Source of the DNA: Candidatus Gastranaerophilales bacterium
GTDB taxonomy: Bacteria; Cyanobacteriota; Vampirovibrionia; Gastranaerophilales; Gastranaerophilaceae
Assembly: GCA_944325705.1 (NCBI GenBank)
Contig: CALVBB010000005.1
Span: 1-64,000, forward strand
Reading direction: 5' to 3'
Length of the DNA stretch: 64,000 bases
Part shown: piece by piece, positions 1 through 34,208 of the stretch
Position numbering within the stretch: the stretch's first letter is position 1
Layout: the number at the start of each line of letters is the position of its first letter
Made by a program: the position numbers and the translations under genes
The notes under the pieces: model-generated
The model's input: the letters and a program-made list of their open reading frames with translations, nothing else
Told to the model about the DNA's origin: nothing
Database searches by the model: none

Positions 1-41
1 CCCCCCCCCCCGCAAATCCTTGCTATACTTGACTTTTCCAT
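1..41 (-). CDS. 5' end of a poly-G-gated gene, cut by the window edge
   Basis: Seen: on the minus strand a strong Shine-Dalgarno (AAAGGAG) lies 8 bases before an ATG at 41. Ten codons follow (MEKSSIARIC) and then a run of at least 11 G that reaches position 1. The product is unknown because the body of the gene lies outside the window. The arrangement matches the cassettes at 9699, 11839 and 34128: the RBS/start region AAAGGAGATTAAACAATG differs at only one or two bases from those at 11839 and 34128. A homopolymer directly after the start should make expression phase-variable by slipped-strand mispairing (inference). Confidence 0.6.
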   Translation of the reverse strand, partial: MEKSSIARICGGG

Positions 42-83
42 TGTTTAATCTCCTTTGCTTTATTTTTTTTATTACTTTTCTCT

Positions 84-161
84 GGACAATCTATAAATGT
101 TTTAGAGACGATAGCGAGAGCAAAGCGGGAGTGTGTTCGAGAAAACATTTATAGATTGTCC
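84..161 (-). repeat. Hairpin repeat, copy 1, in the 5' leader of the edge gene
   Basis: Two perfect 20-base inverted arms (84-103 and 142-161) enclose a 38-base loop. On the minus strand the loop contains CACTCCCGC and CTCTCGCTATCG. The same loop core recurs at 1510-1540, 5345-5375, 6918-6940, 11899-11933 and 49831-49862, while the arm sequences differ from copy to copy. Here it lies between a promoter (186-214) and the start codon at 41, so it should be transcribed as a 5' UTR hairpin. Confidence 0.75.
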
Positions 162-185
162 TATTTATTTTCCACTGCCTTTTTT

Positions 186-4746: not shown

Positions 4747-5439
4747 AGTTAATTTCCTTTTCTAGCTAGTTGCGTACCTTCATCATATCTAAAAAATTAC
4801 AAAAATCAAGTCACATGTTAATTTTCATTAAATTAACTAGTTACTTGTATAAGGATTGAAGCATAGTACTGATCGACACACCTCCACTTTGGGTAATGCT
4901 GCAATTTCCATCTTTAACTTTAAAAGACTTTTAGCTAATAAAAAGTTAAAAGAGAATAGATCATGTCCCCATTTGTTTGGCCTTTAGTTCCGTTAACATC
5001 AATTGCAAACAGCTGTGCTTCTGCCATTTTGTACGCATTCTGAGCTCTGCGAAGCAAGTGCCCCTGTATACCGTAGGTTGGCTGAGGGGGGCTGTAATGT
5101 TAAACGGTTGAAAAGTTGAATGGTTGAAGGGTTCACCATTAGACATGTCATTCTGAAACGGTAATTGCTTAGACGCGCAGAGCTGTCACTGTTCAGAATC
5201 TCTTTGTTTTGAGATCCTGTCACAGGAGCTACTTCAGAGCCTGCCCTGAATTTATTTCAGTGATGACATGAACCTTCCTTTTGTCATGCTGAATTTATTT
5301 CAGCATCTCTTTCGATTTTTCTATGATTTTTTTAACTTTTTGAGGCGATTGCTGGAGCAGCGCGGGAGCGTGCCCGAAAAAAGTTTTTTATTTAATTTGA
5401 AATGTTCTAGAGTTTTTTCCTCTGTCTTTTTATAATAAT
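4747..5439. other. 693-bp intergenic region with dispersed short repeats, no gene
   Basis: 4747-4900 holds the upstream region of rpmB. From about 5035 the sequence is a mosaic of short repeats. It has GTTGAAAAGTTGAATGGTTG-like direct repeats (5101-5130), a CATTCTGAA…TTCAGAATCTC palindromic type (5149-5210), and GTCATGCTGAA…TTCAGCATCTC (5283-5308). The same types recur near 9840-9910, 43622-43690 and 49775-49805. ORFs of about 60-75 codons in this stretch lack RBSs and are made of repeats. A hairpin-family copy ends the region (5334-5439). Confidence 0.7.
5334..5439 (-). repeat. Hairpin repeat, copy 3, with remnant promoter-like flank
   Basis: On the minus strand the order matches cassette C (11881-12000): TATTATAAAAAGACAGAGGA, then TCTAGAACATTT, then the loop core CACGCTCCCGCGCTGCTCC and AGCAATCGCCTC. 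The second arm is decayed, and no RBS/ATG/poly-G follows; a GCATGACA-type palindrome is found instead. It abuts the miaB stop. This looks like a cassette remnant. Confidence 0.65.
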
Positions 5440-9674: not shown

Positions 9675-9698
9675 AAATAAAAAAAGGAGGATAAATTT

Positions 9699-10876
9699 AT
9701 GCAAAACACAGCTATAGCTTCAAAACTCAGAGGGGGGGGGGGGGCTCGGCTTCCTGTAAATCCGCTCAGGACAAGGGCTTCTGGCGGACATTTTTAGAAA
9801 ATATTAAGCGCGGAGATTTTTTTAAATCTTTTTCCATTGCGGGCGCTAATGACAAAGAGATTCTGAACAGTTGCAGCTATTGTGAGCCGCAACAATTTAC
9901 GTTTCAGAATGATATATCAAAAGATGAAGGCAAAGACCTCCCTTGTAAGGGAGGCGGCACGATTGTGCCGGAGGGTGTTGAAGAAAACCCCTCACCCGAA
10001 TTACTAAATTCACTTCGTTCATTAAGTAATTCTACCCTCTCACCTGCACTGTGTTCCGGAAGCAGGCTCACAAGGCGCATTCTTCACCTGTTCGCTTTGC
10101 TCCGCAAGGGGCGAGGGATAGTAAAGACTTCACGCTTCACACGCCGAAAAGCCGCCTTTACATTGGCAGAGGTGCTTATCACACTCGGTATTATCGGGGT
10201 GGTTGCTGCGATGACACTGCCAACCCTTGTCGGCAACTACAAGAATAAAGAACTTTCAACGCGGGCTAAAAAGACCTACTCGCTTATAAGTCAGGCGCTT
10301 CAAAAATATCAGTCAGACAACGGAACAGTCGGCGATATAACAGGTCTGTTTGACACATCTAAAAACTCTGCAGACGTCACAACCGCCTTTTCAAAATATT
10401 TTAAAGCAACAAGAGTCTGTACCTCTAAAACACAGAAAGGCTGTGACAAATTCTATTATGAAGTTACGTATGCGTCACCGCTGTACAATGCAGAAGGTTC
10501 AGCAACAGGTTCAAGCATGTATACCCCAAAATTTCTCCTTCCGGATGGAGCATTGATAGGAATTAAGATGCAAAGTTCATGTATACATCCAACAACATCA
10601 ACAGTGTATAATCCTGACGGAACTCCACAAAAAGATGCTGACGGTAATGTAATAACAAACACCTATAACGAGAACAGCTGCGGCTCAATATATTTTGACA
10701 CAAACGGCCCGGCAAAACCAAACCAGTTCGGAGCAGATGCCTTTGAACTGCGTGTTAGAAACAACAGCAAATTATGGGGATGGGGCAAAACCGGCTGGGA
10801 CAGTCTGAATGAAATTCTCAGCGGCAAAGATCCGGTTTATTCAAAATATTCTAAAGGAGATAAGTTTAATTTTTAA
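9699..10876 (+). CDS. Poly-G-gated type IV prepilin-like protein, out of frame in this sequence
   Basis: The ATG at 9699 has an excellent RBS (AAAAAGGAGG). Eleven codons (MQNTAIASKLR) lead into 13 G (9732-9744). As sequenced, the frame ends 21 codons after the G run (stop at 9795-9797). With 14 or 11 G the frame runs without a stop into the prepilin reading frame (from 9965 on) to the stop at 10876. The prepilin part has AAFTLAEVLITLGIIGVV (pseudopilin N-methylation domain with the +5 Glu) at about 10150-10210, then a C-terminal disulphide-type domain with several Cys and a 'SIYFDTNGPAKPNQFGAD' region shared with the gene at 10908. The 130-residue stretch before the pilin helix consists of dispersed repeats and is far longer than a normal leader. 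Alternative reading: a decayed prepilin whose own start was lost to repeat insertion. Confidence 0.6.
9732..9744 (+). repeat. Poly-G tract, 13 G
   Basis: Homopolymer immediately after codon 11 of the 9699 ATG. Its length sets which frame is read downstream: 13 leads to a stop, while 14 or 11 opens the prepilin frame. Confidence 0.9.
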
Positions 10877-10877
10877 T

Positions 10878-10909
10878 AAAAAAGAGTTCCCGCGGGAACT
10901 CTTTTTTTT
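10878..10909. terminator. Bidirectional terminator between convergent prepilin genes
   Basis: Perfect palindrome AAGAGTTCCCG / CGGGAACTCTT flanked by A and T runs on both sides, lying exactly between the stops at 10876 and 10908. Confidence 0.9.
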
Positions 10910-11639
10910 ATCTTGGGCTGCCTACAGTGTATTTTGTGTACTGAAGTTCGTTTTTCCCTGCAAGAATATTCCTGAAGCTTGTACCGCCATAAGGAGCCCA
11001 GGTACCTGCTAAAACTTTATTTTGAGTTATCGCTACCTGATATGTATCAGCCCCGAACTGGTTCGGGTTTTTCGGCCCGTTAACATCTATATAAAGATAG
11101 GTACAAACAACAGATTTACCGGTTGTAGGAATTGTATTTCCGTCCTCATCAAGAATACAGCTGCCTGTAGAATCCTGCTTACAATCATTTGTTATTCTTT
11201 CGCATGCTGTCATCTGCTGGAGTGCAATAATTGCACCGTCATTTAGAATTATTTTAGGATGAGTCATATTTGAAGCTTTTGTTGTCGTGCCGGAACCGGA
11301 GTATTTCGTTGCATACTTCTGGGTGTAATAGTATTGAGAACAGCCTTTTTGTGATTTGTTTTCGCAGACCTTTGCCCCGTTAAAAAGCTTTGCGAACCTT
11401 TTGGCATTTTCCACAGAAGATTTTGTAACATCAAAGAAAACCGAATTGTCCCCTACAACACCGGCTTCTTTCTGCGCCAGAAGCACAGCATTTTGAATAT
11501 TTGAATATAACTTCCTTGTTTTGGTGCAGAGTTCTACCTCCTTATGCTTGTTTATCAGTGTCGGCATTGTCATTGCGGCAACAACACCGATGATTCCAAG
11601 TGTAATAAGAACTTCCGCCAGCGTGAATGCTTTCCTCAT
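10908..11639 (-). CDS. Type IV prepilin-like (pseudopilin) protein
   Basis: Predicted substrate of prepilin peptidase, inserted in the inner membrane and possibly assembled in a type IV pilus or pseudopilus. Seen: 243 residues, a very short leader (MRKA) directly before FTLAEVLITLGIIGVV with the conserved Glu5. The C-terminal globular domain has paired cysteines (VCENKSQKGC, CERITNDCK, SCILDE, VCTYLY) and a 'YLYIDVNGPKNPNQFGAD' block shared with the prepilin at 9965-10876 and, more loosely, with the one at 46159. RBS AAAGGAG at 11650; promoter at 11666-11694. Confidence 0.88.
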   Translation of the reverse strand: MRKAFTLAEVLITLGIIGVVAAMTMPTLINKHKEVELCTKTRKLYSNIQNAVLLAQKEAGVVGDNSVFFDVTKSSVENAKRFAKLFNGAKVCENKSQKGCSQYYYTQKYATKYSGSGTTTKASNMTHPKIILNDGAIIALQQMTACERITNDCKQDSTGSCILDEDGNTIPTTGKSVVCTYLYIDVNGPKNPNQFGADTYQVAITQNKVLAGTWAPYGGTSFRNILAGKNELQYTKYTVGSPR

Positions 11640-11665
11640 TATTGATTTGCTCCTTTCTTTATATT

Positions 11666-11694
11666 ATTATATCTTATAACTTATGCTTTTTCAA
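11666..11694 (-). promoter_or_regulatory. Promoter of the 10908-11639 prepilin gene
   Basis: Minus strand TTGAAA, 17-base spacer, TATAAT, with the RBS and ATG about 20-27 bases beyond. Near-consensus sigma70-type. Confidence 0.75.
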
Positions 11695-11716: not shown

Positions 11717-11839
11717 TTATATACACGCTAAAAAGCAGTCAATAAATATTGACTGCTTTTTAAACTTTAAAAACCTTTGTATGGAGCTTAAACTACTTGC
11801 CCCCCCCCCCGCTTTTCTTGATATTACTGCGTTTCCCAT
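11717..11839 (-). CDS. Orphan poly-G leader cassette (cassette C), 40-codon ORF
   Basis: Minus-strand ATG at 11839 with RBS AAAAAGGAG. Nine or ten codons (MGNAVISRKA) lead into 11 G (11800-11810), then 27 more codons to a stop at 11717-11719. The other two frames stop within five codons of the G run. A strong terminator hairpin (11730-11761) lies inside the last third of the ORF, so no longer gene is reachable. I read this as a cassette without cargo (lost gene or cargo-less copy), not as a functional protein gene; translation of a short leader peptide is possible. Confidence 0.5.
   Translation of the reverse strand: MGNAVISRKAGGGASSLSSIQRFLKFKKQSIFIDCFLACI
11730..11761. terminator. Terminator inside the cassette C ORF
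   Basis: AAAAAGCAGTCAAT pairs perfectly with ATTGACTGCTTTTT around a 4-base loop, with A and T runs on both sides. It separates cassette C from the prepilin gene at 11639. Confidence 0.85.
11800..11810 (-). repeat. Poly-G tract, 11 G (cassette C)
   Basis: Run of 11 C on the plus strand, 27-29 bases after the minus-strand ATG, the same spacing as at 34100 (28 bases). Confidence 0.9.
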
Positions 11840-11880
11840 TGTTTATTCTCCTTTTTATTATTCCGTTTCTCTTTTTTTAT

Positions 11881-11954
11881 ATTAAATAAAAAACTTTTCG
11901 AGGCGATTGCGGGAGCAGCGCGGGAGCGTGTCCGAAAAAAGTTTTTTATTTAAT
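11881..11954 (-). repeat. Hairpin repeat, copy 5, in the cassette C leader
   Basis: Perfect 18-base arms (11881-11898 and 11937-11954, ATTAAATAAAAAACTTTT type) enclose a loop that reads on the minus strand CACGCTCCCGCGCTGCTCC then CGCAATCGCCTCG. It lies between promoter 11991-12019 and the RBS at 11845-11852, the same order as in cassette A. Confidence 0.8.
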
Positions 11955-11990
11955 TTTAAATGTTCTAGAATATTTTCCGCTGCCTTTTTT

Positions 11991-12019
11991 ATTATAATCT
12001 ATTTTATCCAAATCTGCAA
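11991..12019 (-). promoter_or_regulatory. Promoter of cassette C
   Basis: Minus strand TTGCAG, 17-base spacer, TATAAT, followed by AAAAAAGGCAGCGGAAAATA. Both hexamers and the following stretch match the promoter at 186-214. Confidence 0.7.
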
Positions 12020-33120: not shown

Positions 33121-34128
33121 CTACCGTATCTTATTTTCTTTGCTGCGGAATAAATTTATCAGTTTAATTTTAACAATGCAATCCCAGAACAAGGTTTTAT
33201 TAGTTTCTTTTGTAAGAAGGTGTTTATATTTTGATTTGTTTTTGACAAGATATTCAGGAAAACTTGAATCAATCTTTACAGGAAGCAAATAATATTTTTC
33301 AAATTTTTGATATGAAGGCAGCATCTGCGCGTCCTGTTTATAATCTCTTTTCTGCTGCATAGCCGCATTTTCATCACCATGGACAGCTACACCTTGAAGC
33401 TTTGCGGCAAGAACATCCGCACCGCCGGCATACCCGAAGTGCCAGCCTGCATAGTTGTAATACGTCTGCCGTTCAAGCCCGTCATACAACCTTATCTTTG
33501 TTGCTGTAGTTCCCCTGTTCCACTCCGGCAGAACTCCGGAATGAGAAACTTCTATATCATCGAGAATATTTTTGTAATCTTTGTATGAAAGAATTTTTGT
33601 TGCATGATTAAACTTCATGCCTGCTGCAACATTATTAAGCCAGTAATAAAACCCGAACATCTTTAATGATTTGATACCGGGTTTGTCCTTAACTTTCAAA
33701 ATAACTTTCGGGTCAGGAATTTCATCGGCATCGGAAATCATAATAATATCATTATCTTTGCAGTCCTTAAGCCCGCGCAAAATACAATTTCTCTGGTAAT
33801 TTTCCAGAACCCATGTAGATGTCAGAGGCGGAATATCATCCACAATTATATGTATAATTTTATCTTCAAAATTCTTAAATCTCTCTTTGTTTTCCAGAAA
33901 ATAAAGCGGCTTATCTTTGCCGGTGTGAGTTTTTACAGCCTCAACTATAACAAATTTGTCAACAATATCATTCAAAACATTCAATCGAATTTCCAAAATA
34001 TCAAGCTCATTAAAAAAACTAAAACAATCATAAATTTTACCTGCCGCAGATTTTTCATTGTTGTGCCGGTCAGGGCTTAAATCAGGCTGCCCCCCCCCCC
34101 GTTTTACTTGATATGACTGTGTTTTCAT
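33121..34128 (-). CDS. Poly-G-gated glycosyltransferase family 17, in frame (ON)
   Basis: Probably transfers a sugar to a surface glycan; GT17 is the family of beta-1,4-GlcNAc-transferase III. Seen: 335 residues. The first ten codons (MKTQSYQVKR) are the cassette leader, ending in a run of 11 G (34090-34100) read as Arg-Gly-Gly-Gly. The GT17 domain starts at about residue 31 (KIYDCFSFFNELDILEIRLN), with FVIVEAVKTHTGK, the metal-binding-type ISDADEIPDP, and a W-H-FGYAGG block. With 10 or 12 G the frame stops within five codons of the tract. No alternative in-frame start before the domain. Promoter TTGTTT-N16-TATAAT upstream (34150s). Confidence 0.88.
   Translation of the reverse strand: MKTQSYQVKRGGGQPDLSPDRHNNEKSAAGKIYDCFSFFNELDILEIRLNVLNDIVDKFVIVEAVKTHTGKDKPLYFLENKERFKNFEDKIIHIIVDDIPPLTSTWVLENYQRNCILRGLKDCKDNDIIMISDADEIPDPKVILKVKDKPGIKSLKMFGFYYWLNNVAAGMKFNHATKILSYKDYKNILDDIEVSHSGVLPEWNRGTTATKIRLYDGLERQTYYNYAGWHFGYAGGADVLAAKLQGVAVHGDENAAMQQKRDYKQDAQMLPSYQKFEKYYLLPVKIDSSFPEYLVKNKSKYKHLLTKETNKTLFWDCIVKIKLINLFRSKENKIR
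34090..34100 (-). repeat. Poly-G tract, 11 G, in the GT17 gene
   Basis: Starts 28 bases after the minus-strand ATG. In frame at 11; gains or losses not divisible by three close the gene. Confidence 0.9.
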
Positions 34129-34208
34129 GGTTTATTCTCCTTTATTCTTATTATACTTGATAAAATTTTTAAAACAAATGTTATAATAATAAAAAAGGAG
34201 AATTATAT

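Follow-up and report, generated by a model that had tools for sequence, protein, structure and literature searches.

The best explanation for the G-tracts described here, to which we give a probability of about three in four, is a replication-slippage switch that is OFF by default and acts on a very large prepilin repertoire. The evidence comes directly from the anatomy of the loci, their distribution, the statistics of their reading frames, the selection on OFF genes and the differences in tract length between orthologues and between paralogues. Length variation inside a population is what we infer, the tracts being known here from assemblies, in which homopolymer lengths may be off. A widespread and largely uncultured gut lineage, a non-photosynthetic relative of the cyanobacteria, appears to hold very many pilus-subunit genes, each of which can be switched separately. 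Gene callers miss or truncate OFF genes, and the repertoire is therefore easily overlooked. The common cassette also provides a natural series of replicates for studying how the ON fraction depends on tract length, frame and selection. We find no description of such a system in Gastranaerophilales or Melainabacteria in the literature that we searched.

The mechanism that we propose has the following steps. Dispersed 5' cassettes (a strong RBS, an ATG, about 10 lineage-specific codons and a poly-G of mostly 9-13) would put dozens of prepilin genes, together with a few enzymes of surface sugars, under independent contingency switches. Translation would begin at the cassette ATG; one tract length modulo 3 would lead into the prepilin, the two others would usually end within a few codons, and replication slippage, presumably within populations, would alter the length. 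The prepilin peptidase is expected to cut at the FTLAEV junction and to remove the whole leader including its poly-glycine; since the leader lies wholly before this junction and is removable by the peptidase, the switch would cost the mature pilin nothing. In the genus of the window, where most tracts have one G too many, deletion of a single G would turn a gene ON in what is probably a small minority of cells. Recombination or copying between loci would keep the 5' ends of the cassettes alike as the mature pilins diverge, and the probable role is to vary the pilus subunit displayed toward the host, phage or neighbours.

The cassette in the window and across the order

The window is the whole stretch of 64,000 nt that we analysed (G000:C5:1-64000). 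The earlier note had claimed four copies of a start cassette in it, on the minus strand at 41, 11839 and 34128 and on the plus strand at 9699. All four starts are real: each has an AAAGGAG-type RBS and an ATG, and the leader peptides MEKSSIARIC, MGNAVISRKA, MKTQSYQVKR (minus strand, in the order given) and MQNTAIASKLR (9699) are followed by G11, G11, G11 and G13. The window contains no further G-runs of at least 8, and it has 18 overlapping GGGGGGGG matches where 0.27 are expected, a count attained by no shuffle. A chance origin of leader plus G-run is ruled out by these shuffles and by a backwards-read control across the order.

Two of these loci belong to the main type, in which leader and cargo are fused. 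The cassette at 41 (1..56, minus strand; RBS 50-56, G11 at 1-11) is truncated, with its cargo beyond the contig start, and it matches complete copies elsewhere (L051, L036). The plus-strand locus (9680..10876) is a fused prepilin, in which the RBS, the ATG at 9699, the leader and G13 (9732-9744) are followed by a long spacer and by the mature pilin FTLAEVLITLGIIGVVAAMTLP, which spans 10157 to the stop at 10876 (N_methyl, PF07963, E=2.1e-5). As assembled it is OFF (32 aa), and one added G gives the coding frame (392 aa). The locus at 34128 (33121..34143, minus strand; RBS 34137-34143, G11 at 34090-34100) is a fused GT17 glycosyltransferase (PF04724, E=3.4e-27) that is in frame as assembled, that is, ON (335 aa); its leader resembles that of the locus at 11839. 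The GT17 and the prepilin were listed as cargo in the earlier note. The "unknown" cargo at 41 is unknown only because the contig begins inside the G-run, and the "none" at 11839 has a prepilin downstream. Dispersed repeats (CCCTTGTAAGGGAGGCGGCACGATTGTGCCGGAGGG..., peptide LPCKGGGTIVPEGV) are also seen in frame within the tract-to-pilin spacer, at about 9935-10115 of the window and in many fused loci.

A count of four falls far short for the genome of the window (1.95 Mb), which has 73 distinct G-runs of at least 8, 50 of them behind an RBS-ATG-leader. The leaders are about 8 to 17 codons long and form two main families, ME(N/K)xSIARxx and MQNTxIASKLx. Given the right number of Gs, most cassettes read through the spacer into a prepilin (FTLAEVLITLGIIG... 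or FTLAEVLITLGIIGVVAAMTLP), so that a fused locus consists of the leader, G9-G15 (mostly 9-13), a spacer of variable length and the mature pilin past the presumed peptidase cut. The cargo has the N-methylation motif and the hydrophobic helix of prepilins (PF07963). The short basic leader that usually precedes the cut is absent from the fused loci: in the 30 long fused pilins examined, 22-178 residues precede the FTLAEV motif, while the unfused pilin of the window starts with MRKA followed by FTLAEV. The genome encodes an A24 prepilin peptidase (PF06750, E=2.2e-34). Its prepilin repertoire is unusually large, with 131 N_methyl matches at E <= 0.01; in the related genomes inspected the count is mostly 49-131, with 17 in G028.

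Is the cassette present in other genomes of the order, as a search proposed in the earlier note was meant to reveal? Among 286 genomes of the order, 113 contain a looser form of the pattern, nearly all of them within the family of the window, and the backwards-read control gives about 0. A scan of named genomes (RBS-ATG-24..39-G9) returns, among the matches listed, mainly Candidatus Gastranaerophilales and Melainabacteria MAGs, the others being scattered. The leaders are lineage-specific and are reused within a genome, such as MLKLYEQL (G193), MFINAKTRT (G238) and MQKxxIxRIS (G003). Non-pilin cargo is also observed behind poly-G leaders, namely a 907-aa protein whose weak match is starch-synthase-like (L088:2987), a DUF1796 protein (L088:6875) and a GT-D-like protein (L073:8521).

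The cassette behaves like a 5' module that can be exchanged. In 15 gene pairs selected for a leader identity of at least 85% and an identity of at least 80% over the downstream 60 nt (observed, 85-100% and 80-98%), the median identity of the mature parts is 0.28, and the correlation between leader identity and mature-pilin identity is 0.09. Such similar leaders on pilins that are about 28% identical indicate that copying or homogenisation of the module proceeds without regard to the cargo. The idea of a shared leader that gates many genes by frame is borne out, with one frame in three opening into a prepilin or, rarely, a glycosyltransferase. The cargo genes are mostly not "unrelated", as had been supposed, since they are overwhelmingly N-methyl prepilins with GT17 as the exception. 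Nor is there support for a "mobile" module, if this means an element that transposes: around the cassette copies examined, no transposon ends or transposase are seen, and gene conversion or segmental copying suffices.

A palindromic element adjoins some copies only. One copy (84..165, minus strand; stem GGACAATCTATAAATGTTTT, loop with ACACACTCCCGC..GCTCTCGC) lies directly 5' of the leader RBS, and a second (11875..11960, minus strand) has another stem with the same loop core. The element is also found at 5351-5377 of the window and 5' of L033, L036, L058, L071 and L078. Its stems are variable yet self-complementary, and its loop core (CACRCTCCCGC..TGCTCYCGC) is conserved and lies about 90 nt 5' of the cassette ATG, in 11 distinct contexts within the 0.4 Mb of sequence examined.

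An unfused, terminator-containing type

The locus at 11839, on which the earlier note was centred, is of a second type that was not foreseen there, with a terminator between leader and pilin. At G11, its leader ORF (11717..11854, minus strand; RBS 11848-11854, MGNAVISRKA, tract at 11800-11810) is a 40-aa ORF that passes through the terminator to 11717, the open frame; at G10 or G12, a stop is met 7-12 nt past the tract. The intrinsic terminator AAAAAGCAGTCAATATTTATTGACTGCTTTTT (11730..11761, minus strand) is a 15-bp hairpin between the leader ORF and the pilin; the fold z of the region is -3.4, and conservation of the terminator extends over 6 paralogous loci in two species. Past it lies a promoter-like TTGAAA-17-TATAAT (11666..11694, minus strand; 11 of 12), also conserved in paralogues, and then the prepilin MRKAFTLAEVLITLGIIG (10908..11656, minus strand; PF07963, E=1.4e-4), which has its own RBS (11650-11656) and ATG (11639, the gene running from 11639 to 10908).

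Unfused loci recur in G004, G003, G007, G011, G142 and G238. The distance from tract to pilin ATG is 138-161 nt in 29 of 32 such loci from several genera. A hairpin is found at 22 of the loci, and exactly one frame reaches it in 20, where 10.7 would be expected; the remaining two frames mostly stop within about 20 nt. The leader ORF has about 15 codons in the closed frames; in the open frame it can be as long as about 46.

A tentative reading, compatible with the slippage switch that we prefer for the fused type, is that the leader ORF at 11839 acts as a phase-variable attenuator. A ribosome in one of the frames would run onto the terminator and transcription would reach the pilin; in the two others it would stop early and the terminator would form. 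The near-constant spacing of tract, terminator and pilin across genera speaks for this, as do the 20 of 22 loci with a single frame reaching the hairpin and the loci of G003, which nearly always keep the stops of both closed frames though the stop codons differ. The leader ORF, terminator and structural gene of a transcription attenuator are all present, but the window also has a separate promoter, near-consensus and conserved, past the terminator, which argues against full control and weakens the case for a clean attenuator at this locus. In addition, the unfused copies are not independent, and the hairpins of G238 were missed by the scan. We consider it rather doubtful, though worth stating, that at the unfused loci as a class G-run length decides whether the ribosome reaches the terminator, which would make these loci phase-variable attenuators built on the same cassette that serves the fused type across a family of gut bacteria. 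If this is true, slippage in the DNA controls the transcription of a separately initiated pilin.

The alignment A1 of the unfused loci of G003 has an invariant CCTCCG past the tract that complements the pilin RBS CGGAGG (columns 63-68 and 167-172), with almost no covariation. It is possible that this CCTCCG sequesters the pilin RBS, as a candidate pairing.

Frame, selection and the competing readings of the fused type

The default state of the fused loci is OFF, which the earlier note did not foresee. Among 170 de-duplicated fused pilin loci, taken from assembled sequences and related to each other within a genome, 88 are one G too long, 66 are one G too short and 16 (9%) are in the coding frame, where one in three would be expected (p = 4e-13). 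When each of the 101 sequence classes is counted once, about 11 are in frame (p = 2e-7). In the genus of the window, 57 of 73 fused loci have exactly one G too many, 11 have one too few and 5 are in frame; the 31 fused pilins of the window's own genome divide into 23 ON+1, 6 ON-1 and 2 ON. One G too few is commoner than one too many in the other genera.

The ON-length classes 9, 10 and 11 are mostly observed at 10, 11 and 12 (chi-square p = 7e-15). The tract length follows each gene's own frame, so there is no common preferred length, and a mutational equilibrium alone is ruled out because the length distributions differ by ON class. The assembled OFF frame closes within 6 codons past the tract in 87% of cases and the third frame in 60%; a null drawn from these genes gives 45%. 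An alternative start codon that would place the OFF length in frame is excluded for the main cassettes, where the pilin frame meets a stop after the ATG and before the tract and has no start codon downstream of the tract. The locking of the OFF bias to frame and not to length counts against the slippage switch in its simplest form, since simple equilibrium slippage would not produce it. We suggest, and do not present as a result, that deletion-biased slippage keeps the majority OFF and a small part ON. MutS is intact in the genome, so its loss is ruled out as a cause of hypermutability.

The OFF genes are not pseudogenes, at least for the pairs tested. For orthologues that are OFF in both the window's genome and G004, the dN/dS of the mature pilin is 0.08-0.15 and that of the tract-to-pilin part is 0.46-0.88; the latter values fit a removed leader that would be of little consequence. 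Tract lengths were also compared between relatives, where the earlier note had proposed to compare strains, and both length and phase differ among orthologues of two species and among paralogues. The GT17 gene is G11 and ON here and G12 and OFF in G004; the MLDMLKFTNRADF pilin is G11 and OFF here and G12 and ON in G004; L034 and L252 are an orthologue pair in opposite OFF frames; and near-identical paralogues of G193 with the leader MLKLYEQL or close variants range from G9 to G12. The loci thus have what is found in contingency loci: a translated 5' homopolymer beyond chance, a change of one unit that joins or separates the start and a full-length ORF under selection, and lengths that differ between relatives.

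The same observations bear on programmed recoding. Under this reading the functional allele is the one with the out-of-frame length, and slippage on the poly-G in a fixed proportion of transcripts or ribosomes joins the 15-codon leader ORF to the prepilin. Such a scheme would account for a single OFF frame that dominates in each lineage and is locked to the gene's frame, for a default frame that stops almost at once, for the strong purifying selection on OFF genes and for a 15-codon zero-frame product that recurs with unrelated leaders. We nevertheless regard it as unlikely. In a programmed frameshift the frame relation is conserved in all members; here the required direction depends on the lineage (mostly -1 in the genus of the window, mostly +1 in others), and lengths and phases vary among orthologues and near-identical paralogues, some of which are in frame. 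In Bifidobacterium breve, moreover, where the tracts are likewise ON+1, it is the DNA that changes (PMC9187656).

It is improbable that the OFF bias is an assembly artefact, with true lengths in frame and one G added or dropped by the assemblers. All the data are assemblies, several contigs end inside or next to tracts (C5:1, C1:66, C21:51, C33:213) and the bias is uniform within a genus, as an artefact might have it. The direction of the bias differs between genera, however, and the poly-G-started genes of viral contigs occupy all three phases (16 at +1, 11 at -1 and 10 at 0), the in-frame state not being depleted among them. Intact copies in frame and out of frame also stand side by side in one genome. 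Cassettes with an interrupted tract, which is more reliably assembled, are likewise locked out of frame (L404, L426, L431, L451), several of the interrupted cassettes having a decayed look.

That the poly-G works as DNA or RNA and not via frame, as a G-quadruplex starting pilin gene conversion, is very improbable, because the importance of frame is evident from the open pilin-frame spacers of 22-178 aa and from the early stops in the other frames, and because the uninterrupted G9-G12 differs from the spaced G4 motif of pilE, even though a transcribed G-run does lie directly 5' of members of a large pilin family, the cassette 5' ends are homogenised and the unfused copies keep a pure G11. Its precedent is the G4 5' of gonococcal pilE with its small RNA (PMC3547852).

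Relation to known phase-variable systems

The nearest system to the slippage switch proposed here is that of the sortase pili of B. breve, where a short ORF with good initiation signals lies 5' of the pilin, the annotated tracts of bbr_0113 and bbr_1889 are G11 and G10 with in-frame lengths of 10 and 9 (that is, ON+1), 3-6.5% of cells are one G shorter and the ON state is enriched in mice (PMC9187656). The two systems are alike in the short upstream ORF with an RBS, in a tract of G10-G11, in a default OFF state with one extra G (57 of 73 fused loci in the window's genus), in the life of a gut commensal and in a presumed surface role. B. breve has one or two LPXTG pilus clusters per genome, whereas tens of N-methyl prepilins share one cassette here. 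With a cargo of N-methyl prepilins in place of an LPXTG pilin and its dedicated sortase, the present system works like the B. breve switch but is no member of it, and it also differs in a leader that the prepilin peptidase would remove and in having a terminator type.

The homopolymer loci of Neisseria, Campylobacter and Helicobacter likewise have a G-run near the 5' end of surface genes and frame-gated ON/OFF states, as in the poly-G in the signal-peptide region of pilC and the G8-G11 tracts of C. jejuni. Each of those genes has its own context, in contrast to the common leader module and the default OFF phase seen here. The Opa proteins differ from the present loci in their pentamer repeats (CTCTT), in being outer-membrane proteins and in forming a smaller family. 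They are similar in that about 11 paralogous surface proteins of Neisseria gonorrhoeae are dispersed on the chromosome, each of them phase-variable (PMC3745409). Gonococcal pilE/pilS, with the pilE G4, shares a large pilin repertoire, a G-run near the pilin promoter and exchange between copies; it has silent donors and one expression site, while most copies here have their own RBS and ATG and full ORFs under purifying selection. Leader-peptide attenuators resemble the unfused type in that a short ORF is translated ahead of a terminator and the structural gene lies beyond it, but they depend on ribosome stalling on a metabolite signal, where the unfused type would use a heritable tract length. 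New here are the scale of the system, its common cassette, a cargo of prepilins and a terminator-containing type.

Comparable arrangements are also observed outside the order. Planctomycete prepilin-like genes (FTLVELLVVIAIIG; L111, L114, L207) have a short leader and then G10-G13, apparently as an independent occurrence. In the viral contigs L288, L293 and L272, phage genes appear to be switched in a similar way: several tandem genes that probably encode phage tail or receptor-binding proteins each begin with a short leader and then G8-G12, in mixed phases.
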